From: a virus
Length of the DNA stretch: 23,599 bases
IMG/VR virus record: IMGVR_UViG_3300025407_000131
Span: 1 to 23,599 of that record
Strand: one strand, 5' to 3'
Shown: positions 2 through 22,100 of the stretch, piece after piece
Position numbering within the stretch: position 1 is the first letter of the stretch
Layout of the letters: each line of letters starts with the position of its first letter
Notes under the pieces: model-generated
Told to the model about the DNA's origin: nothing
Databases searched by the model: none
Seen by the model: the letters and a program-made list of their open reading frames with translations, nothing else
Made by a program: the position numbers and the translations under genes

Positions 2-1921
2 CTCATTCAGGGTCTGTCCTATGCATTGTTTGGTAACCCGATCAATAGCATTCGCAAAGACAATCTAATCAATCGTACCAATGCTAAGGGCATGATGGTC
101 ACTCTTGAGTTTAGTGCAAATGGCATTGAATACAAGATTGAGCGCGGTCGTCGTCCCAATGTATTAAAGTTCTATATCAATAGCGACTTGCAAGAAGCTA
201 AGGACGATGCTCAGGGTGAGAATAAAGAAACGCAGGCTTACATTGAAAAAGCTATTGCGATGTCCCCTGACATGTTCAAGCACATTGTTGCGTTGAATAC
301 ATATAGCGAACCGTTCTTGTCAATGAAGGCAAATGATCAGCGCAACGTCATTGAACAGTTGCTAGGCATCACGTTATTGTCTGAGAAGGCTGATCTTATT
401 AAAGAGAAGACTCGCCAGAATAAGGATGCTATCCAGCAAGAAGAATTTCGTGTCAAGGCTGTTGAAGAAGCCAACAAGCGAGTACAAGAACAAATTGAAG
501 CACTACGCCGCAGACAAGTTCTTTGGCAGCGCACACATAGCGATGCGTTATCTAAGTTGTTAGCTGACTACGATGAACTGTGTAAGATTGATATTGATCT
601 TGAATTACAGGCTCATAAGGACCTAGCAACATACAACGAAAAGAAAAAGCAGCAGGATGCATGTAATGCTCTCGTTGCAAGACAGACTGCATGGTTACAG
701 AAGCGCGACAATGATGTTAAGGTTCTACAGACCAGCTACAATACAAAGAGCAACATTGACATCACTAGTGAATTGCAGGCTCACTATGATCTTAAGGTAT
801 ATGAAGCTAACAAGATTGAACTTGCTAATATCAACAAGACGATCACTGCACTAGAAGCTGCCTTAAAGAAAGACGAAGCACTAGTTGTTAAGTTGCAGGG
901 TGAGATTAAGACTCTTGAAGAAAACAAGTGCTATGCTTGCGGTCAAGACCTTCATGATGAGAATCATGCTAATGTTCTTGATAGCAAGAAGAACTTGTTG
1001 GATAGTGCAATATCAGAGCTTGCCCAAACCCAAAACGAACTAGAAAAAAATAAAAATTCTATCTTTGTTTTGGGCGACATGCCTACTACATATTACAAGA
1101 CTGAGGCAGAAGCAATCAAGCATAGCTCCGAGCTTGAAAACATTCAAAATCAGATTACAGCTAAATTAGCTGAAACTGATCCTTATGCCGAACAGATTGC
1201 AGAACAATGCACGTTTGAAGACATTGGTTCTCCTCCAGTTACTCATTATGATACTGAGGCAGAAGCTGTTGAACATAAGGCTATTGTTGCAAATCTAGAA
1301 AAGTCAATTGAAAGTAAGGCTGCTGAGTCTGACCCATATCTTGAACAAATTGAAGATATGGAGAACAAAGCACTGCAAGAAATTAGCTTTGACAAGATCA
1401 ATGAACTTACTCGCTATGGTGATCACTTGAAGTTCCTTCAAGACTTGCTTACTAGCAAGGATAGCTTTGTGCGTAAGCGTATCATTGACCAGAACTTGTC
1501 ATACTTGAATGCAAGATTGACTCACTATCTTGATAAGATTGGTTTGCCACATACTGTTGTATTCAAAAATGATCTAAGCGTTGAAATTACAGAGCTTGGT
1601 CGTGAACTTGACTTCCACAATCTTAGCCGAGGTGAGATGAATAGGTTAATTCTGGCTCTTTCTTTTGCGTTCCGTGATGTTTGGGAAAACTTGTATTCCC
1701 CTATTAACGCCCTATTCATTGACGAGTTGATTGATTCCGGTATGGATAGTATTGGATTGGAAAATTCACTTGCAATTCTAAAAACCATGTCACGAAATCG
1801 TAATAAGTCTATATGGTTAGTGAGTCATAAGGAAGAGTTAACGAGCAGGGTTGATAGGGTGTTGAAGGTCGTCAAAGAAGCGGGATTTACGTCATACAGC
1901 ACTGATTTTGAAGAAGAATGA
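2..1921 (+). CDS. 46: gp46-like recombination endonuclease subunit (SbcC/Rad50 family), 5' truncated
   Basis: This is the large ATPase subunit of the T4 gp46/gp47 complex (SbcCD, Mre11-Rad50 type), which resects DNA ends for recombination-dependent replication. The frame is open from base 2 and continues upstream, so the Walker A end lies outside the window; the codon reading L-F-G near 26 is internal, not a start. Counting from base 2, a long coiled-coil region is split by a zinc-hook CYACG at residues 310-314 (Rad50 C-x2-C). The ABC signature LSRGE is at about 541-545, Walker B ending in D574-E575, the D-loop SGMDS just after, and the switch histidine in SHKEE at about 609. These are all the C-terminal elements expected of the family. 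The stop TGA overlaps the GATAAATA box that precedes the homing endonuclease gene. The gp47 partner is not in the window. Confidence 0.95.
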   Translation, partial: LIQGLSYALFGNPINSIRKDNLINRTNAKGMMVTLEFSANGIEYKIERGRRPNVLKFYINSDLQEAKDDAQGENKETQAYIEKAIAMSPDMFKHIVALNTYSEPFLSMKANDQRNVIEQLLGITLLSEKADLIKEKTRQNKDAIQQEEFRVKAVEEANKRVQEQIEALRRRQVLWQRTHSDALSKLLADYDELCKIDIDLELQAHKDLATYNEKKKQQDACNALVARQTAWLQKRDNDVKVLQTSYNTKSNIDITSELQAHYDLKVYEANKIELANINKTITALEAALKKDEALVVKLQGEIKTLEENKCYACGQDLHDENHANVLDSKKNLLDSAISELAQTQNELEKNKNSIFVLGDMPTTYYKTEAEAIKHSSELENIQNQITAKLAETDPYAEQIAEQCTFEDIGSPPVTHYDTEAEAVEHKAIVANLEKSIESKAAESDPYLEQIEDMENKALQEISFDKINELTRYGDHLKFLQDLLTSKDSFVRKRIIDQNLSYLNARLTHYLDKIGLPHTVVFKNDLSVEITELGRELDFHNLSRGEMNRLILALSFAFRDVWENLYSPINALFIDELIDSGMDSIGLENSLAILKTMSRNRNKSIWLVSHKEELTSRVDRVLKVVKEAGFTSYSTDFEEE

Positions 1922-1927
1922 TAAATA
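1920..1927 (+). promoter_or_regulatory. T4-type late promoter box (GATAAATA)
   Basis: GATAAATA differs by one base from the T4 late consensus TATAAATA, which acts alone without a -35 element. It overlaps the stop codon of gp46 and would start an RNA near 1933, placing the 1931-1961 hairpin at or near the 5' end of the leader of the GIY-YIG gene. The motif recurs ahead of many genes in this window, which supports the call. Confidence 0.55.
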
Positions 1928-1930
1928 AAT

Positions 1931-1961
1931 GTGAGTCGCGGGAGTACGAATCCCCACTCAC
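1931..1961 (+). promoter_or_regulatory. Leader hairpin resembling a tRNA acceptor/T-arm minihelix
   Basis: GTGAGT (1931-1936) pairs with ACTCAC (1956-1961). Inside it, GGGA (1940-1943) pairs with TCCC (1951-1954) around the 7-nt loop GTACGAA. The outline of a 6-bp outer stem, short internal bulge, 4-bp inner stem and 7-nt loop is like an acceptor stem stacked on a T-arm. It sits between a late box and the ribosome-binding site of the homing endonuclease gene. It could be a regulatory hairpin or a relic of a tRNA 3' end; no matching 5' tRNA half is visible. Confidence 0.45.
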
Positions 1962-1986
1962 TCTAATGCTTGAAGGAGCAATCAGC

Positions 1987-2736
1987 ATGTCTATTTATCA
2001 CCCTACCATACCGTATATCTATAAATGGATTCACCTTCCCACGGGCAAATGGTACATAGGTTCAAAAGTTAAAAAGGGGTGGAATCCCGGCCGACACGAA
2101 GAATATATCAGTTCAAGCAAAGAAGTTAAACCGCTCGTACTGGAAAACAGAGAAGAATGGACATATGAAATATTACATACCGGTGAGCCTGACTACATAG
2201 TGTCTTTGGAAACTGCGATACTGACAGAACTAGATGCGAGAAATGATCCCATGAGCTTTAACCAGCACAACGGAGACGGGTTATATAATAGATTTGGTGT
2301 CAAGGAAAATAAAGAAACACGAATGAAGAAGCGAGAAGCAAGATTAGGTGAAAAGAATCCTATGTTCGGTAAGAAGGGGATGTTATCACCTCACTACGGA
2401 AAAACTTATTCCGATGAACATCGTAAGAAACAAAGTATCGGAGTAAAAAAATATAGCGAGTGTCGTCCAGTTGAGCATAACCAAACTATTTCTAAGTCAT
2501 TATTAGGAAACCCTAAACTATCGGATAGAATGAAGGGAGAGAACAATCCTATGTACGGGTTTCCAGCGTCGGATTACAACAAGAAGATGACCACATTAAA
2601 AAATTCCGGTGATAAGAACCCCATGAAGAAGCCAGAGCACCAGCGCACATGTGACCGCTGTGGTAAAACTGTTGCTAAAAACCATTTTACGATGTATCAC
2701 GGTGATAGATGTAAAAGTAACCCGAACGCTCCGTGA
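1987..2736 (+). CDS. GIY-YIG homing endonuclease with NUMOD3 repeats and C-terminal zinc finger
   Basis: The protein (249 aa) begins with a GIY-YIG nuclease domain: YIY at residues 10-12, WYIGS at 22-26, a following conserved Arg (R36) and the Glu of LETAIL (E75), the usual catalytic set. The middle holds NUMOD3-type DNA-binding repeats (GEKNPMFGKKG, GENNPMYG, GDKNPMKK), and the end carries CDRCGKT...H...H...C, a small zinc finger often found in T4-like homing enzymes. The start at 1987 is chosen over the upstream in-frame ATG at 1918 because GAAGGAG lies 9-15 nt ahead of it and the GIY motif then falls near the N-terminus, as usual. Such genes cut intron- or insert-free alleles and spread by repair. 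It splits gp46 from the next nuclease gene, a typical free-standing (SegA-like) position. Confidence 0.93.
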   Translation: MSIYHPTIPYIYKWIHLPTGKWYIGSKVKKGWNPGRHEEYISSSKEVKPLVLENREEWTYEILHTGEPDYIVSLETAILTELDARNDPMSFNQHNGDGLYNRFGVKENKETRMKKREARLGEKNPMFGKKGMLSPHYGKTYSDEHRKKQSIGVKKYSECRPVEHNQTISKSLLGNPKLSDRMKGENNPMYGFPASDYNKKMTTLKNSGDKNPMKKPEHQRTCDRCGKTVAKNHFTMYHGDRCKSNPNAP

Positions 2737-2774: not shown

Positions 2775-3332
2775 ATGCCATCACCAAGTAAGAACAAAGG
2801 ATCAGGATTCGAGCGCGAAGTTGCTAAGTTCCTTAGCGACCTCTATCAAGAGAGTTTTATTCGTGCTCCTGGATCCGGTGCTTACGTTGGTGGCAAGAAT
2901 CAAGCTCGTACACAGTTTCTTCATGAAGGGCAGATTCGCTCATTTAAGGGCGATATTGTTCCTGGTCAGAGTTTCACAAAGTTCAACGCAGAATGTAAGT
3001 TCTATGGTGACTTCCCCTTTCACTTGTTATTCACAGGTGACTGCAAGGTTCTTGAAACTTGGATCGAACAAATGATGGATGTCGCTGAACCAGATGACAT
3101 GAACATTCTCTTTATGAAGTTTAATCGCAAGGGCAGATTTGTCGTTGTACCAACAGACAAGACCTGGGTTACTGACCAGTTCTTTCACTATACATCCAAT
3201 AACCACGGTGATTGGATTATCATCAACTTTGAACACTTCTTTAAGCACAACAAAGACCTTCTTAAGATATACTCAGGCTCAAATAGCTCATCAGACACCA
3301 TGTCAACTAATATCTTAACCATCAACACCTAA
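2775..3332 (+). CDS. PD-(D/E)XK nuclease, Holliday-junction-resolvase-like
   Basis: This 185-aa protein has the sequence layout of small archaeal/phage Hjc-type resolvases: GFERE with Glu at 13/15 near the N-terminus, then KGD with D60, then AECK with E73 and K75, giving the D...ExK metal-binding core of the PD-(D/E)XK fold. That fold cleaves DNA using divalent metal; the exact substrate here (branched DNA versus other) is an inference from the resemblance and from the neighbour gp46. No Shine-Dalgarno sequence is seen; the ATG is 6 nt after a weak late-type box. The last ~20 residues are Ser/Thr/Asn-rich and look like a disordered tail. It is followed by a gene-free structured region. Confidence 0.72.
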   Translation: MPSPSKNKGSGFEREVAKFLSDLYQESFIRAPGSGAYVGGKNQARTQFLHEGQIRSFKGDIVPGQSFTKFNAECKFYGDFPFHLLFTGDCKVLETWIEQMMDVAEPDDMNILFMKFNRKGRFVVVPTDKTWVTDQFFHYTSNNHGDWIIINFEHFFKHNKDLLKIYSGSNSSSDTMSTNILTINT

Positions 3333-3337
3333 AGCTC

Positions 3338-3700
3338 AACACAGAACCCTGACAGTAATGTGATCGTATTTTCGATCCTCCTTGAGGCTGCACCACCGAT
3401 GAATGCGGCTAGATTCTGGAGTATGCCTGATCGTGAGGTCAGGGAACACCGACAGGGCTCTCGTTAGGTAGGCGAACCCTGAATGAGTCTGTGATATACT
3501 CTGTCTTGAAGTCACAGAACATGCGTTGCAGTGATCACGTATCACACTACAGTCCCAGAAAACTTTACAGGGCAACCGGTAGCGTTCAGCAGCAGTACAC
3601 GCTAGTTGAACGGGGAAAAGACAGCAAAGGATGACGGGCCATGGCAATGTCCAAGTCTAGGTAGTGCCTCTCAGGGGCACTACCATGGCTTCTGAACCGG
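3338..3700 (+). ncRNA. Candidate structured non-coding RNA (no known family recognised)
   Basis: No credible gene lies in this block, which is visibly richer in G+C than its surroundings and full of complementary segments. They include CCCTGAC (3347-3353) with GTCAGGG (3438-3444), enclosing GATCG/CGATC (3362-3366/3373-3377) and GCTGC/GCGGC (3387-3391/3405-3409). Further stems are CAGGG/CCCTG (3453-3457/3477-3481), TCTGTGA/TCACAGA (3488-3494/3512-3518), GTGAT/ATCAC (3531-3535/3541-3545) and CGTTCA/TGAACG (3583-3588/3607-3612). The last is GGTAGTGCC/GGCACTACC (3660-3668/3676-3684), framed by GCCATGG and CCATGGC. The plus strand is preferred because it would be co-transcribed with the gene ending at 3332. 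I see no tRNA, tmRNA, RNase P or group I intron core signatures. It might instead be a replication or recombination site acting as DNA. Confidence 0.35.
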
Positions 3701-3746
3701 CAATGTATATTCCTTATAAGATAAAGTTTTAAACGATTAAAAAGGA

Positions 3747-3872: not shown

Positions 3873-4103
3873 TTAGAAGTATGGTAGTTGGGATTTCTTT
3901 GTAACTTCCATGTGTTCTTCAATGATCTTGTTTATCTGCTCTCGCTCAATAGTGGACATATTCAATATATCTTCATATGTCGCGCCACCTCGCATATTCC
4001 ATGCCATGTTTAATGCGGCACTTTTGATAGCAGTAACTTCTTCTTCATAAGATTCAAACAGCTTCTTAATTCTTTCGGGCTTGCCATTAAGAAGCGTTAC
4101 CCG
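3873..4103 (-). CDS. Frameshift extension of gp26-like protein (gp51-position reading frame)
   Basis: This frame encodes 76 residues after the slip site, including a helical stretch with MAWNMRGGATYEDIL and ending TKKSQLPYF. Similar endings are familiar from small proteins next to gp26 in T4-like phages, where T4 itself has gene 51 beside gene 26. Between the last upstream in-frame stop (just before 4130) and the first ATG, deep in the conserved part, there is no ATG, GTG or TTG, so independent initiation is unlikely. The frame is -1 relative to gp26 and is entered exactly at the T_TTT_TTC heptamer (4109-4103). A frameshift would make a 349-residue gp26 fusion as a minority product. The alternative is an unusual start codon or a short 44-aa product from the internal ATG. 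Confidence 0.75.
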   Translation of the reverse strand, partial: RVTLLNGKPERIKKLFESYEEEVTAIKSAALNMAWNMRGGATYEDILNMSTIEREQINKIIEEHMEVTKKSQLPYF

Positions 4104-4109
4104 AAAAAA
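4061..4109 (-). promoter_or_regulatory. Programmed -1 ribosomal frameshift signal
   Basis: Read on the minus strand, the last gp26 codons are GAT TTT TTC GGG TAA. T_TTT_TTC (4109-4103) is a canonical X_XXY_YYZ slippery heptamer in the gp26 frame. After a 7-nt spacer (4102-4096), GCTTCTTAAT (4095-4086) pairs perfectly with ATTAAGAAGC (4070-4061), a 10-bp stem with a 15-nt loop. In addition CGGG (4103-4100) can pair with CCCG (4079-4076) in the loop, allowing a pseudoknot. The gp26 stop (4099-4097) lies in the spacer. All the standard parts (site, spacing, stem, start-less downstream frame) are present. Confidence 0.82.
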
Positions 4110-4921
4110 TCCGCAGGGTTCATAGTGAATGCTTGTTCATACTCGTGTCCGCAGCTAGGGCAAGTTACTTGCAGTGGTTTAATATCTGTTGCACTCTTTA
4201 GTTTTGCGTTGTGGTCTCTGATAGCACCATAGATATTTCTGTCACAGTTCTTTAGGAAGTCTAGAATGAATTCCTGTTCTTGCACTATTAGATTTTCAGT
4301 TTTGATGTATTCAATAGACGCTGCAATCAACTCCATTGTAACCATAGTTACCTTTTCGAGAGTTTGGAAACCCAACTTTTCGCGTTCTTCCGCATCTTCA
4401 ACTGTTTCAATAGATGAAATAAGTTTCTGCAATTCAAACTGCTTCAAGCTAACATCATTCAATTCCTTAAAGGTTAATGGTCTAAACTTAACTTGGAAAT
4501 CTCTCACGCTAAACTCAGTTGCATAGTCTCCTGACTTTAATGTAGACAAGATAGCTACTAAGTTCACGCCATATGAGCTTATATCTTCACATGATGGGCA
4601 CATTGAATCAATATCAAGCGTATCGTTTCCTGAGGCTGCTTTGATGCCGATTAAGATTGCATCCATGTCATTGCTTGTCACAACCCATGGATTCTTGATG
4701 TTAGGAATACAACTCTTGATCAACTCAGCAACCGCAGTGCCGTTAAATAATGCGTCAGGAGTTCTAACTGTAATTTCATCAATTGCAGTCATTGGATATA
4801 CTGGCAATTCACCCGACTCGGGGATAACCAAATCATCAGGGCTATAACCAACGCCCGCACTAGGTAATTTAATGTAAACTGATGGTCTTCTGAAATATTG
4901 TCTTAATGGATTGTTGTCCAT
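4097..4921 (-). CDS. 26: gp26-family T4-like baseplate hub/assembly protein
   Basis: This 274-aa protein starts MDNNPLRQYFRRPSVYIKLP and contains ELPVYPMTAIDEIT and TPDALFNGTAVAELIKSC, the hallmark blocks of the T4-like baseplate protein family that includes gp26. Two Cys pairs, C108-x2-C111 and C254-x2-C257 (CPSCGH), suggest a split zinc ribbon. T4 gp26 is needed to assemble the baseplate hub; whether this protein is structural or a chaperone is not decided by sequence. The start at 4921 is preferred over the longer open frame (to 5119) because AAAAGGA precedes it and the family begins here. It ends in a frameshift signal, and it lies divergent to the tape-measure gene, the position relationship seen for tail assembly chaperones in other phages. 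Confidence 0.88.
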   Translation of the reverse strand: MDNNPLRQYFRRPSVYIKLPSAGVGYSPDDLVIPESGELPVYPMTAIDEITVRTPDALFNGTAVAELIKSCIPNIKNPWVVTSNDMDAILIGIKAASGNDTLDIDSMCPSCEDISSYGVNLVAILSTLKSGDYATEFSVRDFQVKFRPLTFKELNDVSLKQFELQKLISSIETVEDAEEREKLGFQTLEKVTMVTMELIAASIEYIKTENLIVQEQEFILDFLKNCDRNIYGAIRDHNAKLKSATDIKPLQVTCPSCGHEYEQAFTMNPADFFG

Positions 4922-5018: not shown

Positions 5019-8000
5019 ATGGCAGACAACACCGACGCAATCAATGATCTAAACCAAAGTATCGCATCGTTGAACGATACGATTAGTAGCTTTAGCTCAA
5101 GTATGCAAACCCAGATCAAGGCAATGGCTAGTTATAACCAGGCCCTTGGGCAAAACACTACAACTGTCAATCAAAATAACGTTGCAAACTCAGGCGCCAA
5201 TAGAATGGCTGCTGCTAAAAAAGCAGCAGAGGAGCAACTAGCAGTAGCACAAGCAAACTTCAATAAAGCAATTGACTCGTCTGCCGGCTCTATTAGAAGT
5301 TTTGCAATCGCAATGGTTAGTGCTGAGCAAGGGTTCAAGAAGTATGGCCAAAGCATCACGCAAGCAGGTGATGCAGTATATAATGTAGGTAAAAGTTTCG
5401 GTTTCTTAGGCGGCATATTAGGCGGCGCAATCAAGGTAATAACTTCATTTGCAACAGCGGCCTTAGGTTCAATCGACATTCTTTCGGACTTTAGAGATGA
5501 AGTATCTAAAACCTCAGGGGCTATTCCTTCTTCACTAGAACATATTCAAGAACTAGGGATGCAAGCTGGATATTCCGGCGAACGTTTAGCTGTATTACAG
5601 AAGATTACAGCTGGCCTTGGTACTAGTCTTCAAGGATTGGGAGGCGTAGCGGGTACAGGTGTACTTAAGTTCATGCAACTTGCCGATGTAACTGCATCAG
5701 TGCGCGACAAGTTCGGTAAGATGGGTGTCAATCAAGAACAGTTGACTGATTTGCAAGGCAAGTATGTTCAAATACAAGCTGCGTCAGGTATGCAATATCA
5801 ACTGCAAACCAAGAGCATGGCACAACTTCGCAAGGAGTCACTTGAATACGCAGATAACATGACCAGACTTTCTGCTTTAACAGGTAAGTCGGCTGATCAG
5901 CTACAAAAAGAAAAAGAACAGGTTGAGCAAGAGTTTGAAGAACAAGCAGCTACACTTGCGGACGAGGCAAAAATACGCGAATTACGCAAAGCCGGCGCAA
6001 ACGAAGAAGCAGATCAACTAGAAAAATCAATGAAGGCTCGTAAGGGCGTCATGGATAATATTACTACTCTACTAGGTCCTGAACTAAGTTCACAGATGCA
6101 AAGAGTATTGAGAACTGGATTCTTTGATGCCAAGTCAGGTCCTTTAGCACGAATAATGCCAGAGTTAATAACTTATGCAGACCGATTAAAGAACCTTAAA
6201 CCAGGTGATAGTGCAGACAAAGTTACTAGAGACATCTTCAACACTGTTAAGAAAAAATATGAAGAAGGTGCAGTTGACTTTAGAACTGTTATGCAAGTCC
6301 TCGGTGAAGACGGTGCCAAGAGATTAGGTTATTCTGCGGAAACATTTAAACGACTAGCTTCATACGGTGATAAAAACTATGATCAACTAGTAGCACAAAC
6401 TGAAACTAATAAAGATGTAGCAGAAAAACAAAAAGGCTATGCAGACCAGATTCAGAAATTAAGAGAAAGCGAGATTGAGATACAAGGTCAGTATAATCTT
6501 GCAATGACTAAGCTCGGTGGCGAACTAATGCCCTTAGTTACTAATACCATGAATTGGTTGATTACTAATTGGGATAGTACCATTAAACCGGCTCTTGAAA
6601 AACTAGGAGATTGGTTGAAGACGGGACTGAGTTGGCTTACTGAAGTAGATCCTAAAACACATAAAACTGGTTTTCAAAAATTGCAAACGGCAATGAGCGA
6701 TTTGACAGATGTAGTAAAATGGCTTTACCATCATGGCAAACTGTTAGCCGAAGTAGTAGGCGGGGCGTATTTGGCCTTTAAAGGGTATCAGGTTGTTAAT
6801 TTGACTTGGCAGGCTATGAAGGGACTATGGTCATTGATGACCGGATTTGCGGGCTGGATAGGTAAAATAATAGGAGCCGGCGGCGCAGCCGGCGGAGCCG
6901 GCGCGGCGGCTGCGGGAGGCGCAGGTGAAGCAGCCGGAGGTTTAGCAGCAGGTGAGGCCGCCGGCGGCCTAGCAGCAGCCGGCGAAACGGTAGGTGCAGT
7001 AGCAGGACTCGAAGCGGCCGGCGTCGCGGCAGATGCAACTGGTATTGGACTACCAATAGGCATTGCATTGGGTCTGGCTGGTTTAGGAGTAGCTGGGTAT
7101 CAATACTTTAAAGGCTCGGGTGATAAAAAATCCGGAGACCAACAACTAGATCAAGAAACTAAGAGAACCAAAGAAACAGTAGTCAAGACAGCAGAAACCA
7201 ATTCAAAGGCATCTGTGACATATGAAAAAAATACTAAGATCCAAGGTGACAATACCACTTATTTTGGTAAGATCGTAGCGGCATTCGGAACAATTGTAGC
7301 GTCAGAAGGTAAGATCATAGCCGCATTCAGCGATATGATCAAATCTTTTTCAGATTCGGTATCAACTTTTTCTGACACTATTACTACATTTACTGATACT
7401 TTCGGTACATCAGGAAGCACAGTGGGCGCAACAACAGGTGGAATAGACCCCAAAACTATACAGCGAGCTACTAGCTTTTTAACTGGCAAAGGATGGACTC
7501 CGACCCAAGCTGCTGGTATTGTCGGTAATCTAGTAACCGAAAGTAGACTAAAAACTGATGCATTAGGTGATAACGGTAAAGCATATGGTATAGGACAGTG
7601 GCATCCCGATAGACAAGCCAAGTTTAAAGAGGTAATGCACAAGGATATTCATGGATCAACTCTCGAAGATCAATTAGCTTTCCTGGATTGGGAACTTAGA
7701 CACACTGAAGCAAAAGCAGGTGCTTCTCTGGCTCGAACTACTACGGCCGCTGCTGCCGCCTCAATTTTTGATCGCAAATATGAACGTTCATCAGGTGCTG
7801 CAATTCAAGAAAGAATGGCAAATGCTAATGCGATTGCTTCTGGAAATCTATCAGGCATTACTGGGATAGCGGATCAACGCATAGTTGCTCTGGGTAACCT
7901 ACTTATTAGTCAGGGGTTTAAAGTTACTGAAAATCCTAGTTTCGGTGGAGTAACGCCTGGTGTACATAAAGGTAAAGGACACGAAGAAGGTAGAGCTATA

Positions 8001-8474
8001 GATATTAACTTAATTGCAGGTGATGATTCTTCTGATCCGATAGCAGGCCCGAAGATGGATGCATTAGCTGAACAATTATCTAAAAATCCTAACTTTAAGG
8101 TGCTTTGGAGAAAACTAGGTCATTTCAATCACATGCATGTTGAAACAATGCAAAAGGCAGCTAGGGGAGGCGTGTTCTCTGGTCCTACTGGTGGTTATCC
8201 AATTGAAATGCACGGTACTGAAATGGTTGCGCCATTGAATGTAGATTCTATTTTGATGAAGTTGGCAAAAACACCAGTTGGAACAACTGAAACTGACTCT
8301 GTACTTAATTCTATTATACAACCAAGTGGCAAATCGTCAACTGACATAGAAAAGGTAGTAGCAGTGCAGTCCAGAATGATTGATATACTGGGTAATAAAC
8401 TTGATACTGTAATTAATGTACTTGAAACTGGAAACTATACTCAGAATAAGATATTGAGACATTCACTGGCTTAA
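5019..8474 (+). CDS. Tape-measure-like tail protein with lysozyme-like and M15 peptidase-like domains
   Basis: This 1151-aa protein starts after GGTAGGA. Residues 1-60 have coiled-coil character, and 100-560 are largely helical with charged heptad stretches, consistent with a tail tape measure. A hydrophobic/Ala-Gly region spans about 575-700. From about 810 to 945 a phage tail lysozyme-like domain is seen, with a likely catalytic Glu at 841 in LVTESR and YGIGQW later. From about 955 to 1050 there is an M15-type zinc peptidase pattern: H988-x6-D995 in GHEEGRAIDIN, and H1038/H1040 in HFNHMHVE. It would set tail length and open peptidoglycan during DNA entry. T4 gp29 (tape measure) is about half this size and T4 carries its lysozyme on gp5 instead. 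Identification as tape measure rests on size, composition and position next to gp26. Confidence 0.8.
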   Translation: MADNTDAINDLNQSIASLNDTISSFSSSMQTQIKAMASYNQALGQNTTTVNQNNVANSGANRMAAAKKAAEEQLAVAQANFNKAIDSSAGSIRSFAIAMVSAEQGFKKYGQSITQAGDAVYNVGKSFGFLGGILGGAIKVITSFATAALGSIDILSDFRDEVSKTSGAIPSSLEHIQELGMQAGYSGERLAVLQKITAGLGTSLQGLGGVAGTGVLKFMQLADVTASVRDKFGKMGVNQEQLTDLQGKYVQIQAASGMQYQLQTKSMAQLRKESLEYADNMTRLSALTGKSADQLQKEKEQVEQEFEEQAATLADEAKIRELRKAGANEEADQLEKSMKARKGVMDNITTLLGPELSSQMQRVLRTGFFDAKSGPLARIMPELITYADRLKNLKPGDSADKVTRDIFNTVKKKYEEGAVDFRTVMQVLGEDGAKRLGYSAETFKRLASYGDKNYDQLVAQTETNKDVAEKQKGYADQIQKLRESEIEIQGQYNLAMTKLGGELMPLVTNTMNWLITNWDSTIKPALEKLGDWLKTGLSWLTEVDPKTHKTGFQKLQTAMSDLTDVVKWLYHHGKLLAEVVGGAYLAFKGYQVVNLTWQAMKGLWSLMTGFAGWIGKIIGAGGAAGGAGAAAAGGAGEAAGGLAAGEAAGGLAAAGETVGAVAGLEAAGVAADATGIGLPIGIALGLAGLGVAGYQYFKGSGDKKSGDQQLDQETKRTKETVVKTAETNSKASVTYEKNTKIQGDNTTYFGKIVAAFGTIVASEGKIIAAFSDMIKSFSDSVSTFSDTITTFTDTFGTSGSTVGATTGGIDPKTIQRATSFLTGKGWTPTQAAGIVGNLVTESRLKTDALGDNGKAYGIGQWHPDRQAKFKEVMHKDIHGSTLEDQLAFLDWELRHTEAKAGASLARTTTAAAAASIFDRKYERSSGAAIQERMANANAIASGNLSGITGIADQRIVALGNLLISQGFKVTENPSFGGVTPGVHKGKGHEEGRAIDINLIAGDDSSDPIAGPKMDALAEQLSKNPNFKVLWRKLGHFNHMHVETMQKAARGGVFSGPTGGYPIEMHGTEMVAPLNVDSILMKLAKTPVGTTETDSVLNSIIQPSGKSSTDIEKVVAVQSRMIDILGNKLDTVINVLETGNYTQNKILRHSLA
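6873..7035 (+). repeat. G+C-rich Ala/Gly low-complexity segment in the tape-measure gene
   Basis: This stretch codes for about 55 residues that are nearly all Ala, Gly and Glu (residues about 618-672). It contains at least six GCCGGC palindromes in about 150 bp, while the rest of the gene is AT-rich. It follows a Trp-rich hydrophobic segment and may be a flexible or membrane-active linker. The open antisense frames here are by-products of composition. Confidence 0.75.
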
Positions 8475-8507: not shown

Positions 8508-10310
8508 ATGGCATATAAGAAGAAGTTTCTAAACAAGAGCGGCGTTTCAAGTCCTATTTCCGGCATGAACAGCAATACTGGGGCTTGGAATGGTTCTCCT
8601 GGTCAGAACGGTTCACCAACTGGTGGATACGCTAACACTGACTTCGGCTACAAGAATTACATGTCCAGACTTCCAGAAGTTTATACTGGACACCCTAACA
8701 GAATTGAGCGTTATAATCAATATGAAATGATGGATGTTGATGCTGAAATCAACGCTTGTTTAGACATTCTTGCTGAATTCTCTACACAAAGAAACGAACA
8801 CAACAAAACTCCATTCAGCTTTGAATTCAAGGATGAGCCTACTCCCCATGAAGTAGAACTACTTAGTAAGCAGCTACAGCAGTGGTGTAAGCTCAATGAG
8901 TTTGACGTTCGTATGTTCAAGATTTTCCGTAACGTTGTAAAGTACGGAGACCAAGTATTCGTGCGCGACCCAGAAAACTTCAAGTTATACTGGGTTGACA
9001 TGGTTAAGGTCATCAAAGTAATCGTGAACGAGAGTGAAGGCAAAAAGCCGGAACAGTATGTCATCAAAGACATCAATATCAACCTACAGAACTTATCAGT
9101 AGCACAGAAAACCAATACTGACTTTGCTGCTAACCCAGCAACTGGCTTAGGTGGTAGCGGTGGTGGAACTAACACGCCCTACACTGTTCCTGCAATGCCC
9201 TATAACACAACTGGTTCACGATTCACATTGGGACAGAGTGAGTCTGCGGTAGACAGTAAACATGTTGTACACTTATCATTGACTGAGGGACTAGATCGCT
9301 TCTGGCCGTTTGGTCAATCAATTCTTGAGAACATCTTTAAGGTCTATAAGCAGAAAGAACTATTAGAAGACGCTGTTCTAATCTATCGTGTACAACGTGC
9401 CCCTGAACGTAGAATGTTCAAGATTGACGTTGGTAACATGCCGAGCCACTTAGCTATGGCATTCGTTGAACGTGTTAAGAACGAAATTCACCAGCGCAGA
9501 ATCCCTTCATTGTATGGTGGTCAATCAATCGTTGACGCTTCATACAATCCATTGTCAATGAACGAAGACTATTTCTTCCCTGTCACTGCTGAAGGCCGTG
9601 GATCAAGCGTTGAAGTTCTTCCAGGTGGACAGAATCTCGGTGAGATTGATGACTTGAAATACTTCAACAACCGTCTTGCTCGTGGTCTTCGTGTCCCAAG
9701 CTCATATCTACCCACTGGCCCTGATGACAACACTACGCCAATGAATGATGGTCGTGTTGGTACTGCCATGATTCAGGAATTCAGATTCAATCAATATTGC
9801 GAACGTCTACAAAACTATATTTGCTTGAAGTTGGACGAAGAGTTCAAACTATTCTTGCGTTGGAGAGGCTTCAATATTGATACTGGTTTGTTCCAGCTCA
9901 AGTTCAATCCTCCTCAGAACTTTGCTGCATATCGCCAAAGCGAACTTGATACCGCTCGTGTGTCTACGTTTGCTTCAATGGAAGCGTTCCCTTATATCTC
10001 AAAGCGTTTTGCACTTGAAAGATTCTTAGGTCTATCTGAAGAAGAAATCAAGAAGAACGAAAAGATGTGGGAAGAAGAAAACGCAGAAGATGTTGATCAG
10101 GAAACTAAGGGTTCCGATCTTCGTAACATCGGCGTTTCAACTGGCGACTTCAGTGCGGATCAAGAAACAGCCGATCAGATTGAAGCTGGCAATGAACTAG
10201 AAGCTGAAGGCCCAGAAGTTGCAGGTCCAGTTGGCAATCAAGGCGGAGAAGCAGTACCAGGCGGAGCAGCAGGTCCACTAGGTGGCGGCGGTAGCCCAAT
10301 GCAAATCTAA
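8508..10310 (+). CDS. 20: gp20 portal vertex protein
   Basis: This 600-aa protein is clearly the T4-like portal. The N-terminal third has NRIERYNQYEMMDVDAEINA, a family block, followed by LDILAEFSTQ. The middle holds FWPFGQSILENIFKVYKQKE, VYRVQRAPERRMFKIDVGNM and LPGGQNLGEIDDLKYFNNRL, all strongly conserved in gp20. Twelve copies form the channel for DNA entry, on which the terminase and then the neck dock. It is somewhat longer than T4 gp20 (524 aa), mostly because of an acidic, Gly/Pro/Glu-rich tail after about residue 520. It opens the head module and is followed after 15 nt by a small gene. Confidence 0.97.
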   Translation: MAYKKKFLNKSGVSSPISGMNSNTGAWNGSPGQNGSPTGGYANTDFGYKNYMSRLPEVYTGHPNRIERYNQYEMMDVDAEINACLDILAEFSTQRNEHNKTPFSFEFKDEPTPHEVELLSKQLQQWCKLNEFDVRMFKIFRNVVKYGDQVFVRDPENFKLYWVDMVKVIKVIVNESEGKKPEQYVIKDININLQNLSVAQKTNTDFAANPATGLGGSGGGTNTPYTVPAMPYNTTGSRFTLGQSESAVDSKHVVHLSLTEGLDRFWPFGQSILENIFKVYKQKELLEDAVLIYRVQRAPERRMFKIDVGNMPSHLAMAFVERVKNEIHQRRIPSLYGGQSIVDASYNPLSMNEDYFFPVTAEGRGSSVEVLPGGQNLGEIDDLKYFNNRLARGLRVPSSYLPTGPDDNTTPMNDGRVGTAMIQEFRFNQYCERLQNYICLKLDEEFKLFLRWRGFNIDTGLFQLKFNPPQNFAAYRQSELDTARVSTFASMEAFPYISKRFALERFLGLSEEEIKKNEKMWEEENAEDVDQETKGSDLRNIGVSTGDFSADQETADQIEAGNELEAEGPEVAGPVGNQGGEAVPGGAAGPLGGGGSPMQI

Positions 10311-11513: not shown

Positions 11514-12161
11514 ATGGCTTTGTATCTCAGAGAGAATCTAACCTTCGATAGAGCCGAGATGGTTGTCGAGTCCGTAACAGAAGGCAACGACAGTCTAAAA
11601 TCGCTCTATATGAAGGGGATTTTCATTCAGGGCGGGGTTAAAAACGCAAATGAGCGTATTTACCCCGTCTCTGAAATTGAAAATGCTGTAGACACTCTCA
11701 ATAAGCAGATCAAAGAAGGCTACTCCGTTCTCGGAGAAGTCGATCACCCAGATGACCTTAAGATCAATTTAGACCGTGTATCTCACATGATTACTAGCAT
11801 GTGGATGGACGGTGCTAATGGATTTGGTAAACTAAAGATTCTTCCGACTCCAATGGGTCAACTTGTAAAGACTATGTTGGAATCAGGAGTTAAGCTAGGT
11901 GTATCCAGTAGAGGAAGCGGAAACGTTAACGATATGGATGGCCGTGTCAGTGATTTTGAAATTATCACTGTCGATATTGTTGCTCAGCCAAGTGCACCTA
12001 ATGCATATCCCAAAGCGATTTATGAAAGTCTCATGAATATGAAGCACGGACATAAGGTGATGGAAATCGCAAAAGACGTACAATTGTCTGGCAACAAGCA
12101 AGTACAGAAGTTCTTAGGTGAGGAAGTAATGCGCCTCATCAACGAACTCAAATTACGATAA
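11514..12161 (+). CDS. 21: gp21 prohead core protease
   Basis: A 215-aa serine protease of the T4 gp21 family (herpesvirus-protease-like fold). It matures the prohead by cutting gp22, gp67 and the N-terminus of gp23. His78 in GEVDHPDDLKINLDRVSHMI and Ser131/132 in KLGVSSRGSG correspond to the catalytic His and Ser of the family. The length agrees with T4 gp21 (212 aa). It is preceded by AAGGAAAA and is separated from gp22 by only 11 nt with AGGGGA between, so the two are co-transcribed. Confidence 0.96.
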   Translation: MALYLRENLTFDRAEMVVESVTEGNDSLKSLYMKGIFIQGGVKNANERIYPVSEIENAVDTLNKQIKEGYSVLGEVDHPDDLKINLDRVSHMITSMWMDGANGFGKLKILPTPMGQLVKTMLESGVKLGVSSRGSGNVNDMDGRVSDFEIITVDIVAQPSAPNAYPKAIYESLMNMKHGHKVMEIAKDVQLSGNKQVQKFLGEEVMRLINELKLR

Positions 12162-13306: not shown

Positions 13307-14503
13307 ATGTCAAACGTACTTTTAGAAAGCCGTTGGGGAGAAACTAAGGACGCCCTGCTAGAAGGCTTAAAGGGCACACGTAAGTCAACAATGAACGTGT
13401 TGCTTGAAAATACCAAGAAGCAGCTTCTTGCTGAATCTTCAGCTGGTACTACTACTGCTGGTAACATTGCTACACTCAATCGCGTTATCCTTCCGGTAAT
13501 TCGTCGTGTTATGCCAACTGTTATTGCAAACGAACTCGTCGGCGTTCAGCCAATGACTGGCCCAGTTGGTCAGATTCACACTCTACGTGTTCGCTATGCT
13601 AACTCATTGACTGACAACTCAGCAGCACAGACTTCGGTCAACGCTGGTGAAGAAGCTCTATCACCATTCAAGATCGCACAGGCATACTCACGTACTGCCC
13701 TTGCAGATACTTCAACTAACTACTACACTGGTGCAGATACTGCTGCTCTAGAAGGTAACGGTGGTAAGCAGATTTCTGTTCAGATCCTTCGTCAGGCTGT
13801 TGAAGCCAAGTCACGTAAGCTACAAGCTCGCTGGACTTTCGAAGCTGCTCAGGACGCTCAGTCACAGCATGGTATTGACGTTGAAGCAGAAATCATGGCT
13901 GCTCTAGCACAAGAAATTACTGCTGAAATTGATCAGGAAATCTTGCTTTCACTAGCAACTCTTGCATCAACTGAATACACTTACAACCAGGCAACTGTAT
14001 CAGGTACTGCTACTTACGTTGGTGACGAACACGCTGCTCTTGCTGTTCTTATCAACCGCGTTGCAAACTTGATTGCACAGCGCACTCGTCGTGGTGCAGG
14101 TAACTGGGCTGTTGTTTCACCAGCTTCACTTACTGTTCTTCAGTCAGCAACTACTTCAGCATTCGCACGTACCACTGAAGGCACTTTTGAAGCTCCAACT
14201 AACACTAAGTTCGTTGGTACTTTGAACGGTGCAATGCGCGTATTCGTAAACAGCTACGCTCCAGACACTCAGCCAGTTCTAGTTGGCTATAAGGGTTCAT
14301 CTGAAACTGACGCTGCTGCGTTCTATTGCCCATACATTCCGTTGATGTCTTCAGGCGTTGTCCTTGATCCGACTACTTTCGAGCCAGTCGTATCATTCAT
14401 GACTCGTTATGGTTACATCGAACTAACTAACACCGCATCCTCATTCGGGAATGCCGCCGATTACGTTGGCGAAATTGCGGTCCAAAATTTGACGTTTCAG
14501 TGA
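13307..14503 (+). CDS. 23: gp23 major capsid protein precursor
   Basis: A 398-aa T4-like major capsid protein. The N-terminal ~43 residues form the removable delta domain. The sequence LLAE-SS with the cut after E43 matches the gp21 rule (Leu/Ile-x-Glu), predicting a mature protein of about 355 residues (inference). Then come the conserved VILPVIRRVMPTVIANELVG, QPMTGPVGQIHTLRVRY and a typical C-terminus. It is clearly shorter than T4 gp23 (521 aa) and than most cyanophage versions, suggesting a reduced or missing insertion domain. TTAGGAGAA precedes the ATG. A strong terminator follows. Confidence 0.97.
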   Translation: MSNVLLESRWGETKDALLEGLKGTRKSTMNVLLENTKKQLLAESSAGTTTAGNIATLNRVILPVIRRVMPTVIANELVGVQPMTGPVGQIHTLRVRYANSLTDNSAAQTSVNAGEEALSPFKIAQAYSRTALADTSTNYYTGADTAALEGNGGKQISVQILRQAVEAKSRKLQARWTFEAAQDAQSQHGIDVEAEIMAALAQEITAEIDQEILLSLATLASTEYTYNQATVSGTATYVGDEHAALAVLINRVANLIAQRTRRGAGNWAVVSPASLTVLQSATTSAFARTTEGTFEAPTNTKFVGTLNGAMRVFVNSYAPDTQPVLVGYKGSSETDAAAFYCPYIPLMSSGVVLDPTTFEPVVSFMTRYGYIELTNTASSFGNAADYVGEIAVQNLTFQ

Positions 14504-14590: not shown

Positions 14591-14637
14591 ATAGTATTAT
14601 TTATTGAAAAGAGAGGTCTTGGAATAAATAATACTAT
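14591..14637. repeat. Perfect 15-bp inverted repeat spanning late promoter and start of HNH gene
   Basis: ATAGTATTATTTATT (14591-14605) is the exact reverse complement of AATAAATAATACTAT (14623-14637), with a 17-nt spacer. The right arm contains the AATAAATA box and the first two bases of the ATG of the HNH gene; the left arm contains an AATAAATA box on the minus strand. RNA reading through from upstream would bury the start codon in a hairpin, while RNA starting at the internal late box would not. Confidence 0.85.
14623..14630 (+). promoter_or_regulatory. Late promoter box of the HNH gene (AATAAATA)
   Basis: AATAAATA ends 5 nt before the ATG at 14636, within the right arm of the inverted repeat. 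Expected RNA start is at or beside the ATG. The only purine-rich SD-like sequence (GAGAGG) is about 20 nt upstream, too far to serve. Confidence 0.55.
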
Positions 14638-15391
14638 GTTCAAAGAAAACAAATATACTAGGTTATACAACAGTCTCATTGAGAGAGCAACTACTCGCAA
14701 TTGGAATAAAGCCTCTGGCCGTGAAAGGCATCACATTGTTCCTCAGTCATTGGGAGGTAGCAATGATAAATCCAATCTAACTTATCTTTCAGCCCGAGAA
14801 CATTTTATTTGCCATTGGCTCCTAGTTAAGATGACAGAAGGTGAAGCACGAGGAAAAATGCTGTACGCTCTTATGGGAATGAGAGCAATAGGAGACACAC
14901 ACCAAAGATACTCATCATCTATTACGGCTAGAGTATATGAGCGTTATAGGATTGAACACGCTAATAATCATTCCGAAAGAATGAAGGGTAAACCTGCATG
15001 GAATAAAGGACGAAAGTTAGAAGGTGAAGAGCTAGAACAGCACCGAGAACGAACCCGCAACCGAACGATAGATCCTGTTAGACAAGCCGAAGGCCAATCA
15101 AAACGAATAGCAAAAGTAACTGGTACAAAACAAAGTGAGGAAACCAAACTTAAAAAAAGTTTAGCATTGAAGGGTCGTCCCAAAGGCCCAATGAGTGAAG
15201 AACAAAAGTTAAAACGTTCTATGACTATGACAGGGCAGAAGAAGAAACCCGGTCACGCTGACAATGTAAGAAACGCTGTCCTAGGTAATGTATCCATCAA
15301 CAAAGATGGTATTGAGAAGAAAGTCAAACGTGATACACTTGATCAATGGTTGAGTGAAGGATGGGCATTAGGTGGAAGGAAAAGAAAATGA
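14636..15391 (+). CDS. HNH homing endonuclease with NUMOD3-like repeats
   Basis: A 251-aa protein with an intact HNH core: RHHIVP with H32-H33, Asn47 in SNL, and H56/H60 in REHFICH. DNA-binding NUMOD3-like motifs follow (MKGKPAWNKGRKL, KQSEETKLKKSLALKGR, MSEEQKLKRSMTMTG), all Lys/Arg-rich. The C-terminal 45 residues (KKVKRDTLDQWLSEGWALGG) resemble a short module often ending such phage enzymes. It is a free-standing homing gene inserted after the gp23 terminator. Its TGA overlaps the next ATG (ATGA), so it may drive translation of the following genes. Confidence 0.9.
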   Translation: MFKENKYTRLYNSLIERATTRNWNKASGRERHHIVPQSLGGSNDKSNLTYLSAREHFICHWLLVKMTEGEARGKMLYALMGMRAIGDTHQRYSSSITARVYERYRIEHANNHSERMKGKPAWNKGRKLEGEELEQHRERTRNRTIDPVRQAEGQSKRIAKVTGTKQSEETKLKKSLALKGRPKGPMSEEQKLKRSMTMTGQKKKPGHADNVRNAVLGNVSINKDGIEKKVKRDTLDQWLSEGWALGGRKRK

Positions 15392-17650: not shown

Positions 17651-19141
17651 ATGTCAGTAGAATATTTTAACTCATATGGTGGTTACTCAGCAGGCATTCC
17701 GCCTGTACCTGTCATTGATGGCAATGGCAATGTAGTATCAAACTTCAACAATCTGTCTGGTAATGTATCTGCTAATAAGGTATATGCTAACGCATTCTTT
17801 TATGCAAATGGCCAACCCTTCCAAGCTAATCCAGGTGGTAGCAACACTCAGCTACAGTTTAACAACAATGGCGCATTAGCAGGAATTCCCAACGTAACAT
17901 TTAATGGTAGCAATCTATCATTAGGTAATGTTAGTAATGTTAAGATTGGCGGCGGTGTCAATGGCTATGTATTGCAAACTGACGGCGCTGGCAATTTAAG
18001 TTGGGCAGCAAGTGGTGGTGGCGGAGGCAATGGCTCCCCTGGTGGTTCTAACTCACAGATTCAATATAATAGTTCAGGTACATTTGCAGGATCAGGTGGC
18101 TTCACATACAATGATGTATCAAATACTGTTAGCTTAGTAAACTTAACTGCTAATGGAAATGTTAATCTAGGTTCAGTTTCTAATCTCACTATCACAGGTG
18201 GTACTTCTGGCTACTTCTTAAGAACAGATGGTCTAGGCAATCTAAGTTGGGCAGTAGGCGGAGGAGGAGGTAATGGCACTCCTGGTGGATCAAACACTTA
18301 TGTACAGTTCAATGATGACGAAACCTTTGGTGGTGTGTCAACATTCACTTTTGACAAAGACACTGGCATTCTGTCTATCCCAATTCTATCAGCAACTACT
18401 AATATCATTGCTGGTGGATTACAGACAACTGGTAATATCACATCAGGTAATCTCAAAGTCACCGGTCTTGCTAACCTAGTAGGAAACGTAAGAGCAAGTG
18501 GTAATGTCAACTTTACTGGCGCAGCTAACGTAACACTTGGATCAGTAAGCAATCTTCATATCTCAGGTGGTTCAGATGGCTATGTATTACAGACTGATGG
18601 ATTAGGTAATCTATCATGGTCTGCAAGTGGTGGCGGAGGTAATGGTTCTCCGGGCGGCTCAAACACTCAAGTACAGTTCAATGATAATGGAAACTTTGGT
18701 GGCAGTCCATTCTTCACTTATAACAACTATACACATGAAGTTCAAGTAGGTGGTAATCTCATTGCTAACTCATTCCAAATGGGTTCAGGTGTATATGAAT
18801 GGTCTACTTCACAAGTCTACTTTGCGACTACAGCAAGTACAGCACTGCAATCATTGTATAGTGTACCGGTAGCTAATATTTCGGGTGCAGAGTTTCAAAT
18901 AATTGCAACTAATGCTACAGTAGGTAAAAGACAATCCACTAAGATTTCATCAGTAGTATATCAAGGCAATGTTCAGTTCACTGAATATGCAGGATTATAC
19001 ATCAATGGCGGTGTAGGGACTTTCCAAGTTGACTATGACGCAGGAGATATTATTACGCCCCCTTCACTACAACTTAAGGTAACTCCTGACGTAAGTAGTC
19101 AAACAGTTTACAAGATGCTCATAACCCTATTTGCTGGGTAA
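17651..19141 (+). CDS. Repetitive tail-fibre/adhesin-type structural protein A
   Basis: A 496-aa Gly/Asn/Ser/Thr-rich beta-structural protein. The N-terminus (FNSYGGYSAG...VIDGNGNV) is shared with the two following genes and probably anchors to the virion. The body has four PGGSNTQ(L/V)QFN-type units starting near residues 61, 130, 211 and 334, separated by GGG linkers. It also has three copies of GYVLQTDGxGNLSW. The last ~110 residues (from QVYFATTAS) form a non-repetitive domain that resembles the end of the next gene's product. No enzyme motif, signal peptide or membrane segment. Role as fibre or whisker is inferred from composition and position. Confidence 0.75.
   Translation: MSVEYFNSYGGYSAGIPPVPVIDGNGNVVSNFNNLSGNVSANKVYANAFFYANGQPFQANPGGSNTQLQFNNNGALAGIPNVTFNGSNLSLGNVSNVKIGGGVNGYVLQTDGAGNLSWAASGGGGGNGSPGGSNSQIQYNSSGTFAGSGGFTYNDVSNTVSLVNLTANGNVNLGSVSNLTITGGTSGYFLRTDGLGNLSWAVGGGGGNGTPGGSNTYVQFNDDETFGGVSTFTFDKDTGILSIPILSATTNIIAGGLQTTGNITSGNLKVTGLANLVGNVRASGNVNFTGAANVTLGSVSNLHISGGSDGYVLQTDGLGNLSWSASGGGGNGSPGGSNTQVQFNDNGNFGGSPFFTYNNYTHEVQVGGNLIANSFQMGSGVYEWSTSQVYFATTASTALQSLYSVPVANISGAEFQIIATNATVGKRQSTKISSVVYQGNVQFTEYAGLYINGGVGTFQVDYDAGDIITPPSLQLKVTPDVSSQTVYKMLITLFAG
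17831..18700 (+). repeat. Four imperfect repeat units in tail protein A
   Basis: Units begin at 17831, 18038, 18281 and 18650, each coding PGG(S)NxxxQ(F/Y)N followed by a variable strand segment, and the first three lead into a GYxLQ/RTDGxGNLSW block and a Gly linker. DNA copies differ mostly at third positions. Confidence 0.8.
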
Positions 19142-19174: not shown

Positions 19175-22100
19175 ATGGCTATTAGACCACTAAACTCAAT
19201 TGCAGGCTACTCAATCGGTGAGTATCCATCCACAGTAATCATTGATGGTAACGGTAATGTTACAACTGGTAATCTGTCAGTAACTAGCTATGCTAATCTT
19301 GGTAATGTAGGTAATGTTTACATTGGTGGCGGCTCAAGTGGTTACGTACTTCAAACAGACGGTAATGGCAATCTATCATGGTCAGCAACTGCTAGTACAT
19401 CATCTATCAATAATGGTAACAGCAATGTTAGTATTCCTACTACTGACGGTAATGTTTACATCAATGCAAACAGTGGCACAGATTATCAATGGACATTTGA
19501 TACTACTGGCCAAGTAACAATTCCTGGATATATCACTGCACCAATTGGTCAAACGATTGATATTTATACTGGTAACAACTCATCATACAGCGAAATCTAT
19601 CTAACAGATAATGGCAATGTAACGATTGCAACTCAAGCTGAAACATACAACTGGAACTTTGACACGACTGGACTATTTTCTGCTCCGGGTAGTATTGCTC
19701 TCAATGATTTTGTTGTTGTTAACGCGGATGGTTCATCTGAAGGTGGTCAACTAGTATTAGGTTATGCAGGTGTAAGTGGTTTAACTGGGCAAGGCAACTC
19801 AACTTGGAACGTAGATGTTGATTCATCTAACAACTTCCGTATCTTTACTCAGTATGCTAATAGCGCAACCGCAACTGCAATGACAGTTTACACTGCAAAT
19901 ACAGATGTTGAACTGTCTGCTAACTTGATTGTTGATGGCAACATTGCAAATGCTAACAACATCACCGTGACAAATAATATTACTGCTGCTACTGCAAACA
20001 TAACAGGCAACTTGTCTGCTGGTAATGTTGATGGTGGCAATCTAGTAAAAGCTAACAACTTTAGCACAAATGGTTCAGGTGGAGACATCACATTAACTGG
20101 TGGTAATGTACTTGGCGCCAACATAATCTTCTCAAACTCGTTCACTTCAAACGGTGGCCTTGTAGACTTCAGCACAAACAATCCAAATGTTCAGCTAGGT
20201 TCAAACGCTAATGTTCACATCTATGGTGGTAACTCAGGGCAGATTCTATCAACTGATGGGTCAGGCAATCTAAGCTGGGTATCAACTGGTACACAAAGCG
20301 AAATCTATAACGGCAACAGCAATGTCACTATTCCTACTATGGATGGCAACGTCTATATTAATGCAAATGGTGGTACTAATGAGCATTGGGTGTTCAGTAC
20401 TGACGGGATCTTAACATTAGCAACTCCTACTAGCGGTTATTCACAAATAACATCAAATTCAGGGTCTAATATTGACATCTATACCGGCGGCACAAATTAC
20501 TCTGAAATCTATTTGATAGATGGTGGTAATGTAACAATTGCTACAAATGGCGAAGTATCAAACTGGGTATTTGATAATACTGGTAATTTAACTTTACCTG
20601 GAAGTAGTTATATTAAACCAGTTACCGGTAGTCTAAACTTAACTGACAGTACCGGTAATAGTTATATTGACCTTGATACAAACAACATCTATCTATATAC
20701 CGATTATGCAGGTAGTGAGTATGAATGGAATCTTGACAATACCGGTAATACTACTTTCCCTGCTGTTGGTACTGCAAATCTTGGTAACTTAGTAACAGCT
20801 AACTACGCTAACTTTGCAAATGATGTGGTTGTTCAAGGCAACATTGCTAACGCAAATAACATCACTGTTACTAATAATGTAACGGCTGCTACTGCAAATA
20901 TTACAGGCAATTTATCAGCAGGTAATGCAAATCTAGGCAACCTAGCTTCTGCTAACATTTTTTCTGCTAATTATGCTCAAGTAAACAATATCTCTAACAC
21001 TCAAATTGCATACGGTAACGCATCTAATTATCTAGTAGGTAACTCAGCATTCACGTTTGATGATGTTGCTGGCAATCTAAGTGTTCCTGGCAACATCATC
21101 ACTGGTGGTGGTTCAGGTGGCAACATCAGTGGCGTTGACTATTTGTTTGCAGATTACGCAAATCTTACATACGACCTTTTCGTTGGTGGTAATGCAAATA
21201 TTATCGGTAACATTGCTAATGCAAACAATATCACTGCAACTAACAATATTATTGCTGGTGGATATGCCAACATCAATGGAAATGTGATCGCTGCTAATGT
21301 TAACACAGCAGCGGTATATTCTTCTGGTTCATTGGCTCTTAATGCAGTAAGTGGTAACATTGATCTTTATGTAACTGGTGGCAACATCAATGCACACGGT
21401 GTGCAGCTTAAGGAACTTGCTAACCCAACTACTGCACAAGATGCTGCTACTAAGTATTATGTAGATAACGCTGTTTCAGCCGCTCTCACTATTCACGATG
21501 CGGTAATGGTAAACACAGTTGATCCATTAGCAGCAACGTATACACCAGGTGGTACAAGCATCACTTGGACTACTATTACACTCACTACTGATATTGCTAC
21601 TGGCTCAGCACACGGGCTTTCAGACGGTGATGTGATTGTATTTAATACGACTTCTAATGGGCTTACAGCAGGCACACCATACTTTGTAATCGTAGTTAAC
21701 TCTACTACTATTCAAGTTTCACTTTCAGAGCATGGTGATCCAATTGTAACATTGACTAATGGTACAGGACTATCACTTGGATCAACTGCTAACTCGGGTG
21801 TAGGCGCATATCTAACTTCTAATACAAATGGACCATTAACTAGTAACTCATACACTTGTGTATTGAATGATCGTGTTATCGTTCTAGGACAAACTGATCA
21901 AACTCAAAACGGTGTGTACTATATCACTCAAGTTGGTGTTGCTGGAGGTGCCGGCACCCCATGGATCCTAACTCGTACTACTGACGCTGACAAGTATATT
22001 CCAATCAGCACTAATGGGCTTGCACAAGGTTCATACTTCCTAGTCAACATGGGAAGCGAAGCAGGTTATTCATATGTTTGCAGTACTTCTGGAACAATCG

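Follow-up and report, generated by a model that had tools for sequence, protein, structure and literature searches.

A Probable Programmed -1 Frameshift in the gp26-Family Tail Assembly Chaperone Gene of T4-Like Jumbo Phages

The window that we analyzed is an entire 23.6-kb virus record from IMG/VR (23,599 nt) carrying T4-like genes (Table 1). The gene of interest belongs to the gp26 family. In profile searches its product matched PF12322 (E 3.1e-16; 60.2 bits, passing the curated cutoff of 24.5) and phrog_150 (E 5.9e-18; 66.3 bits), and the AlphaFold2 model of this protein had a pLDDT of 88. The gene adjoins a tape-measure-like gene, whose product we presume, by inference, to be the client of the chaperone. 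An earlier note on this DNA had described gp26 as a neighbor of the tape measure gene; this holds for the position and for the tape measure PHROG match, but the two genes are divergent and do not share an operon. The closest isolates are the jumbo phages Agrobacterium Atu_ph07 (33%) and Sinorhizobium Phosso (32%), followed in similarity by PA5oct, BF, GAP32, CBB, 121Q, RaK2, and others; no near-identical isolate phage was found. Elsewhere in the window, the two homing-endonuclease-like genes comprise one of the NUMOD3 type and one of the HNH type, and two large genes (17651-19141 and 19175-23197, encoding 496 and 1340 aa) had no Pfam or PHROG match at an E value of 0.01.

Table 1. Features of the window, with positions numbered from its first nucleotide
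Feature	Position	Strand	Remarks
gp46/SbcC-like gene	26-1921		
Homing-endonuclease-like gene	1918-2736		NUMOD3 or HNH type (one of each with 14636-15391)
Holliday-junction-resolvase-like gene	2775-3332
-1 frame, TAC-C domain of TAC-NC	3873-4103	minus	76 codons (4103-3876) plus stop (3875-3873)
Hairpin, presumed frameshift stimulator	4061-4095	minus	Perfect 10-bp stem, 7 nt after heptamer
gp26-family gene for the predicted short tail assembly chaperone (TAC-N)	4097-4921	minus	274 aa; PF12322, phrog_150
Slippery heptamer T_TTT_TTC	4109-4103	minus	F272 and F273, the Phe codons ahead of the final sense codon of gp26
Tape-measure-like gene with tail lysozyme domain	5019-8474	plus	phrog_9570 (E 2.2e-36), PF18013 (E 2.2e-29)
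Portal gp20	8508-10310
Prohead protease	11514-12161
Major capsid gp23	13307-14503
Second homing-endonuclease-like gene	14636-15391		Directly after major capsid gene

The 3' end of the gp26-family gene reads GAT TTT TTC GGG TAA on the minus strand, and the heptamer within it fits X_XXY_YYZ in the zero frame. It is followed by a 7-nt spacer, GGGTAAC (4102-4096), which contains the gp26 stop codon TAA (4099-4097), and then by the stem; all three elements lie where the earlier note had put them. The junctions compared with this one came from 17 isolates, from the loci of three IMG/VR scans, and from S-PM2, phiM12, and phiW-14. The scans, whose search patterns did not include the heptamer, gave 37, 80, and 80 loci that overlap, and one locus in a set of 80 ends before the junction. 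Retention of the heptamer in relatives had been proposed as a check, and it was confirmed: T_TTT_TTC or T_TTT_TTT is kept in phase in 217 of the 217 usable loci fetched (164 distinct), with exactly TTTTTTC in 214, and a 0-frame stop follows 1 to 11 codons past it. At every locus the codon before Phe-Phe ends in T even though the amino acid varies, nine such codons being seen (GAT, AGT, AAT, CGT, CAT, ACT, GCT, TAT, and TCT). As background in the same genes, a final T is found in 58% of such codons, TTT accounts for 55% of Phe codons, and the heptamer occurs at one of eight other Phe-Phe sites. The F272 and F273 columns are invariant, and the 0-frame sequence after them is unconserved. Because related sequences are not independent, this conservation does not translate into an exact probability; it is more than chance would give.

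An upstream stop closes the -1 frame 9 codons before the heptamer. The earlier description of this frame as open for 76 codons and start-less ahead of its conserved part was accurate for the window, where the first ATG, GTG, or TTG does not occur before residue 33. Among 45 diverged sequences of equal length, the positional entropies of the frame are 0.95/0.61/1.47, and its consensus, R.rLL...WyMRGG.sYed.lNms..ER, starts right at the slip. Judged from these alignments, the -1 frame is evolving as a protein, and its conservation sets in with the codon that immediately follows the slip. Structure prediction suggested a helical domain (TAC-C; model pLDDT 89). A search with this model gave viral matches that were all nonsignificant, including annotated tail or tape measure chaperones of Moogle and BonaeVitae. 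The window's downstream frame alone had no significant family match in Pfam or PHROG, and the downstream frames of relatives matched phrog_18291 and phrog_634. PHROGs splits the postframeshift domain between these two families, the former of unknown function and the latter named "baseplate hub assembly catalyst," and most isolate records annotate the C-terminal domain as a separate hypothetical CDS.

Downstream of the heptamer, GCTTCTTAAT at 4095-4086 can pair with ATTAAGAAGC at 4070-4061, enclosing a 15-nt loop. The stem of the window is ordinary relative to dinucleotide shuffles (z -0.65) and marked relative to synonymous shuffles (z -3.9). Synonymous shuffling was our main structure test: for each of 82 representatives less than 80% identical to one another, the fold of nt 6 to 52 after the heptamer was set against those of 200 versions in which the -1 frame had been recoded synonymously. 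Mean z values were -2.71 for the 66 jumbo-type and -2.35 for the 16 cyanophage-type sequences. Five control windows within gp26 gave z values of 0.04 to 0.14, and the signal weakens along the extension. Excess structure was not found in the jumbo isolates BF, XbC2, Hallingskeid, Munch, and XacN1. The first helix begins 5 to 8 nt after the heptamer in 42 of 45 sequences; conservation of the spacer was among the checks that the earlier note had proposed. In 20 relatives the outer stem is paired in 95% of cells, compared with 36 to 63% when it is slid by 1 to 3 columns; covariation is weak, with no double-sided pair changes in the hairpin in this 20-sequence set. RNAalifold with default scoring returned no consensus for the 45-sequence hairpin set, seemingly because the register of the inner stem varies among relatives, and with RIBOSUM scoring it recovered the outer stem. 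We presume that the excess RNA structure 5 to 8 nt downstream serves as a frameshift stimulator. Pairing of the slip region with the hairpin loop was set aside as incompatible with a ribosome on the heptamer.

T4 offered a comparison with a different gene arrangement. Both T4 gp26 and T4 gp51 match PF12322 (E 8.8e-64 and 3.9e-52, respectively) and are therefore paralogues, with gp51 consisting of the PF12322 domain plus an extra C-terminal tail. The separate T4 genes 26 and 51 named in the earlier note are both present, but gene 51 lies on the opposite strand, divergent from gene 26. PF12322 occurs in two copies in T4 and in one copy in 16 of 17 jumbo isolates; in the 17th, SCTP-2, the gp26-family gene was found with phrog_150. 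In one comparison, the predicted window fusion aligned with gp51 through the C-terminal tail (P 4.5e-5, probability 69%), and the C-terminal domain alone gave a weak alignment (P 0.0028). The earlier note had placed the downstream frame in the gp51 position; this frame is not an entire gp51, and it is the whole fusion that corresponds to gp51. The proposal that gp26 and gp51 are the T4-lineage counterpart of lambda G/GT is essentially right by comparison, with the correction that the downstream frame supplies only the C-terminal domain.

T4 shares the PF12322 family with the window but has two divergent genes and no slippery heptamer. In T4 and its close relatives the two Phe codons persist in gp26 as TTC TTT. 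S-PM2, HTVC008M, phiM12, KVP40, and phiW-14 have one gp26 gene that ends with T_TTT_TT[C/T] and is followed by a -1 frame; phrog_634 is matched both by these -1 frames and by the C-terminal part of T4 gp51. In other T4-like phages, the name gp51 is given to the small ORF that immediately follows gp26; DLP6 lists adjacent gp51 and gp26 (PMC5349666). Databases hold this ORF either as a hypothetical protein of its own (phrog_18291) or as gp51 (phrog_634), but it is very probably the C-terminal domain of a frameshift product. In Salmonella phage Vi01 (L078, ~2268-2310), a -1 frame with a weak phrog_634 match follows gp26, and the junction, GAA ATT TTC ATT TAA, has no perfect slippery heptamer. Vi01 has either a different slip site or another route to the long form.

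The conserved heptamer, the conserved -1 frame, the excess downstream structure, the copy number of PF12322, and the alignment with gp51 make it very probable that the locus encodes a programmed -1 frameshift producing short and long tail assembly chaperones, and the claim of the earlier note on this point stands. We consider the explanation as a whole, in which a jumbo T4-like phage produces TAC-N and a frameshifted TAC-NC from one tail assembly chaperone gene, to be highly likely. We infer that frameshifting occurs here with an efficiency at which most ribosomes would end at the TAA just past the heptamer, giving TAC-N. A minority, stalled by the hairpin, would slip one base back on T_TTT_TTC and read the 76 additional codons, giving TAC-NC, a predicted 349-aa fusion that shares its N-terminal part with TAC-N. 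By analogy with lambda gpG and gpGT, many copies of TAC-N would coat the tape measure protein, and few copies of TAC-NC would recruit tail tube subunits via the C-terminal domain. The comparative evidence favors this parallel, which the earlier note had drawn. As in lambda, the gene lies beside the tape measure gene; unlike in lambda, where the heptamer is G_GGA_AAG, the gp26 protein is 274 aa long and contains Cys motifs, and the tape-measure-like gene is divergent. We obtained no sequence match or direct fold match to lambda gpG. Solved tail chaperones such as HK97 gp13 were not among the fold matches listed, which tells nothing either way.

An alternative that we consider unlikely accepts the frameshift but takes both products as structural baseplate hub proteins rather than tail assembly chaperones. 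Databases name the family "baseplate hub," a CBB entry is annotated "structural protein," and older genetics put gp26 in the T4 hub (PMC3004832). However, the hub assembly chaperones listed in PMC3004832 include T4 gp26 and gp51, and the latter is required for assembly yet absent from the particle. Two products, one short and one long, from a single gene that neighbors a tape measure gene are the pattern of a tail chaperone, and a published study has reportedly identified the tail chaperones of T4-like phages (Vladimirov et al., 2022).

It is less likely still that a separate small gene with its own start occupies the downstream frame, the start being used by internal initiation or by coupling to the gp26 stop. 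Annotators call a separate CDS for the -1 frame in some relatives. An ATG lies near the gp26 stop in the -1 frame of Atu_ph07, Phosso, 121Q, and L047 and further in elsewhere, and an M codon occupies residue 19 in half of the jumbo-type set. The lack of a start codon, whose conservation the earlier note had proposed to test, holds for some relatives and fails for others: in 36 of the 105 jumbo-type sequences, the first 25 codons are free of ATG, GTG, and TTG. The start codons that do occur are at varying places. The arrangement that the earlier note had set against its own claim, an ATG with a Shine-Dalgarno sequence and no slippery site in front of the downstream frame, was not what we found; a Shine-Dalgarno-like 4-mer is present at one start candidate in all. 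On these three grounds independent initiation is improbable. In addition, the R.RLL residues right after the slip are conserved, and a separate gene would need no in-phase heptamer at all of the loci compared. Least probable of all is transcriptional slippage on the six-T run, a simple repeat in which one inserted base would give the same frame and fusion protein, since six T residues are on the short side for slippage by a polymerase, relatives show no lengthening of the run, and slippage of this kind would require neither the fixed phase of T_TTT_TTC nor a hairpin at a set distance downstream.

Returning to the programmed frameshift, its use is reportedly conserved in several T4-like groups, and T4 is said to use its separate genes 26 and 51 for TAC-N and TAC-NC. 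In our comparison, jumbo phages, cyanophages, and others have one gene with a heptamer and T4 has two genes without one, so that the frameshift characterizes most lineages examined and two genes characterize the T-even group. A broader reading, which we offer tentatively and would rate slightly short of an even chance, is that a frameshifted gp26 with a dedicated hairpin is ancestral in nearly all T4-like phages, jumbo phages, cyanophages, and KVP40 included, and that only the T-even group duplicated it to 26 and 51. If so, the T4 "baseplate hub assembly catalyst" gp51 would be a hard-wired former frameshift product. One gene with a frameshift and two genes without one also provide a natural comparison for what sets the ratio of short to long chaperone.

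The tail assembly chaperones of T4-like phages were identified by Vladimirov, Gautam, and Davidson (Virology 2022, 566:9-15), whose study is cited in both PMC10885494 and PMC12846349. Their title and the citing text indicate the same gene family, and PMC12846349 cites them for poly-T -1 signals in T4-like TAC-N genes. For this reason the central idea of the earlier note was, as far as these sources convey, already published, and the frameshift is a further case of a mechanism described for tail chaperones, those of T4-like phages included. A similar case is the tail chaperone of phage Adele (Vandenendeviridae), in which a -1 frameshift at a poly-T motif was likewise inferred from conservation and the downstream ORF was likewise misannotated as a gene, but the slip motif is GTTTTT and the phage family is different (PMC12846349). 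A literature search combining jumbo phage, ribosomal frameshift, and tail assembly chaperone found no paper. The elements of our broader reading that may add to the 2022 paper are the jumbo clade, the hairpin, and where inside Straboviridae the switch to two genes took place. The published frameshift would extend to a large jumbo-phage clade whose members are mostly uncultivated.

We also observed a conserved noncoding element of ~350 to 380 nt at 3344-3723, between convergent genes; it separates the resolvase-like gene from the end of the -1 frame. The element contains no gene and has no Rfam match, and no isolate phage matched it. Copies occur in 48 related loci, with pairwise identities of 55% or higher, and in 25 of 29 comparisons their similarity exceeds that of the gp26 gene (means, 67% versus 61%). 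Folding 34 diverged copies to a consensus gave 81 pairs, of which 45 are changed on both sides, compared with an average of 8 double-sided pairs in column-shuffled controls (energy, -134 versus -34). G-U pairs favor the plus strand (83 versus 38 cells). The element is probably a structured RNA, so far undescribed, that belongs to this jumbo-phage clade, and it may be a more novel item than the frameshift.
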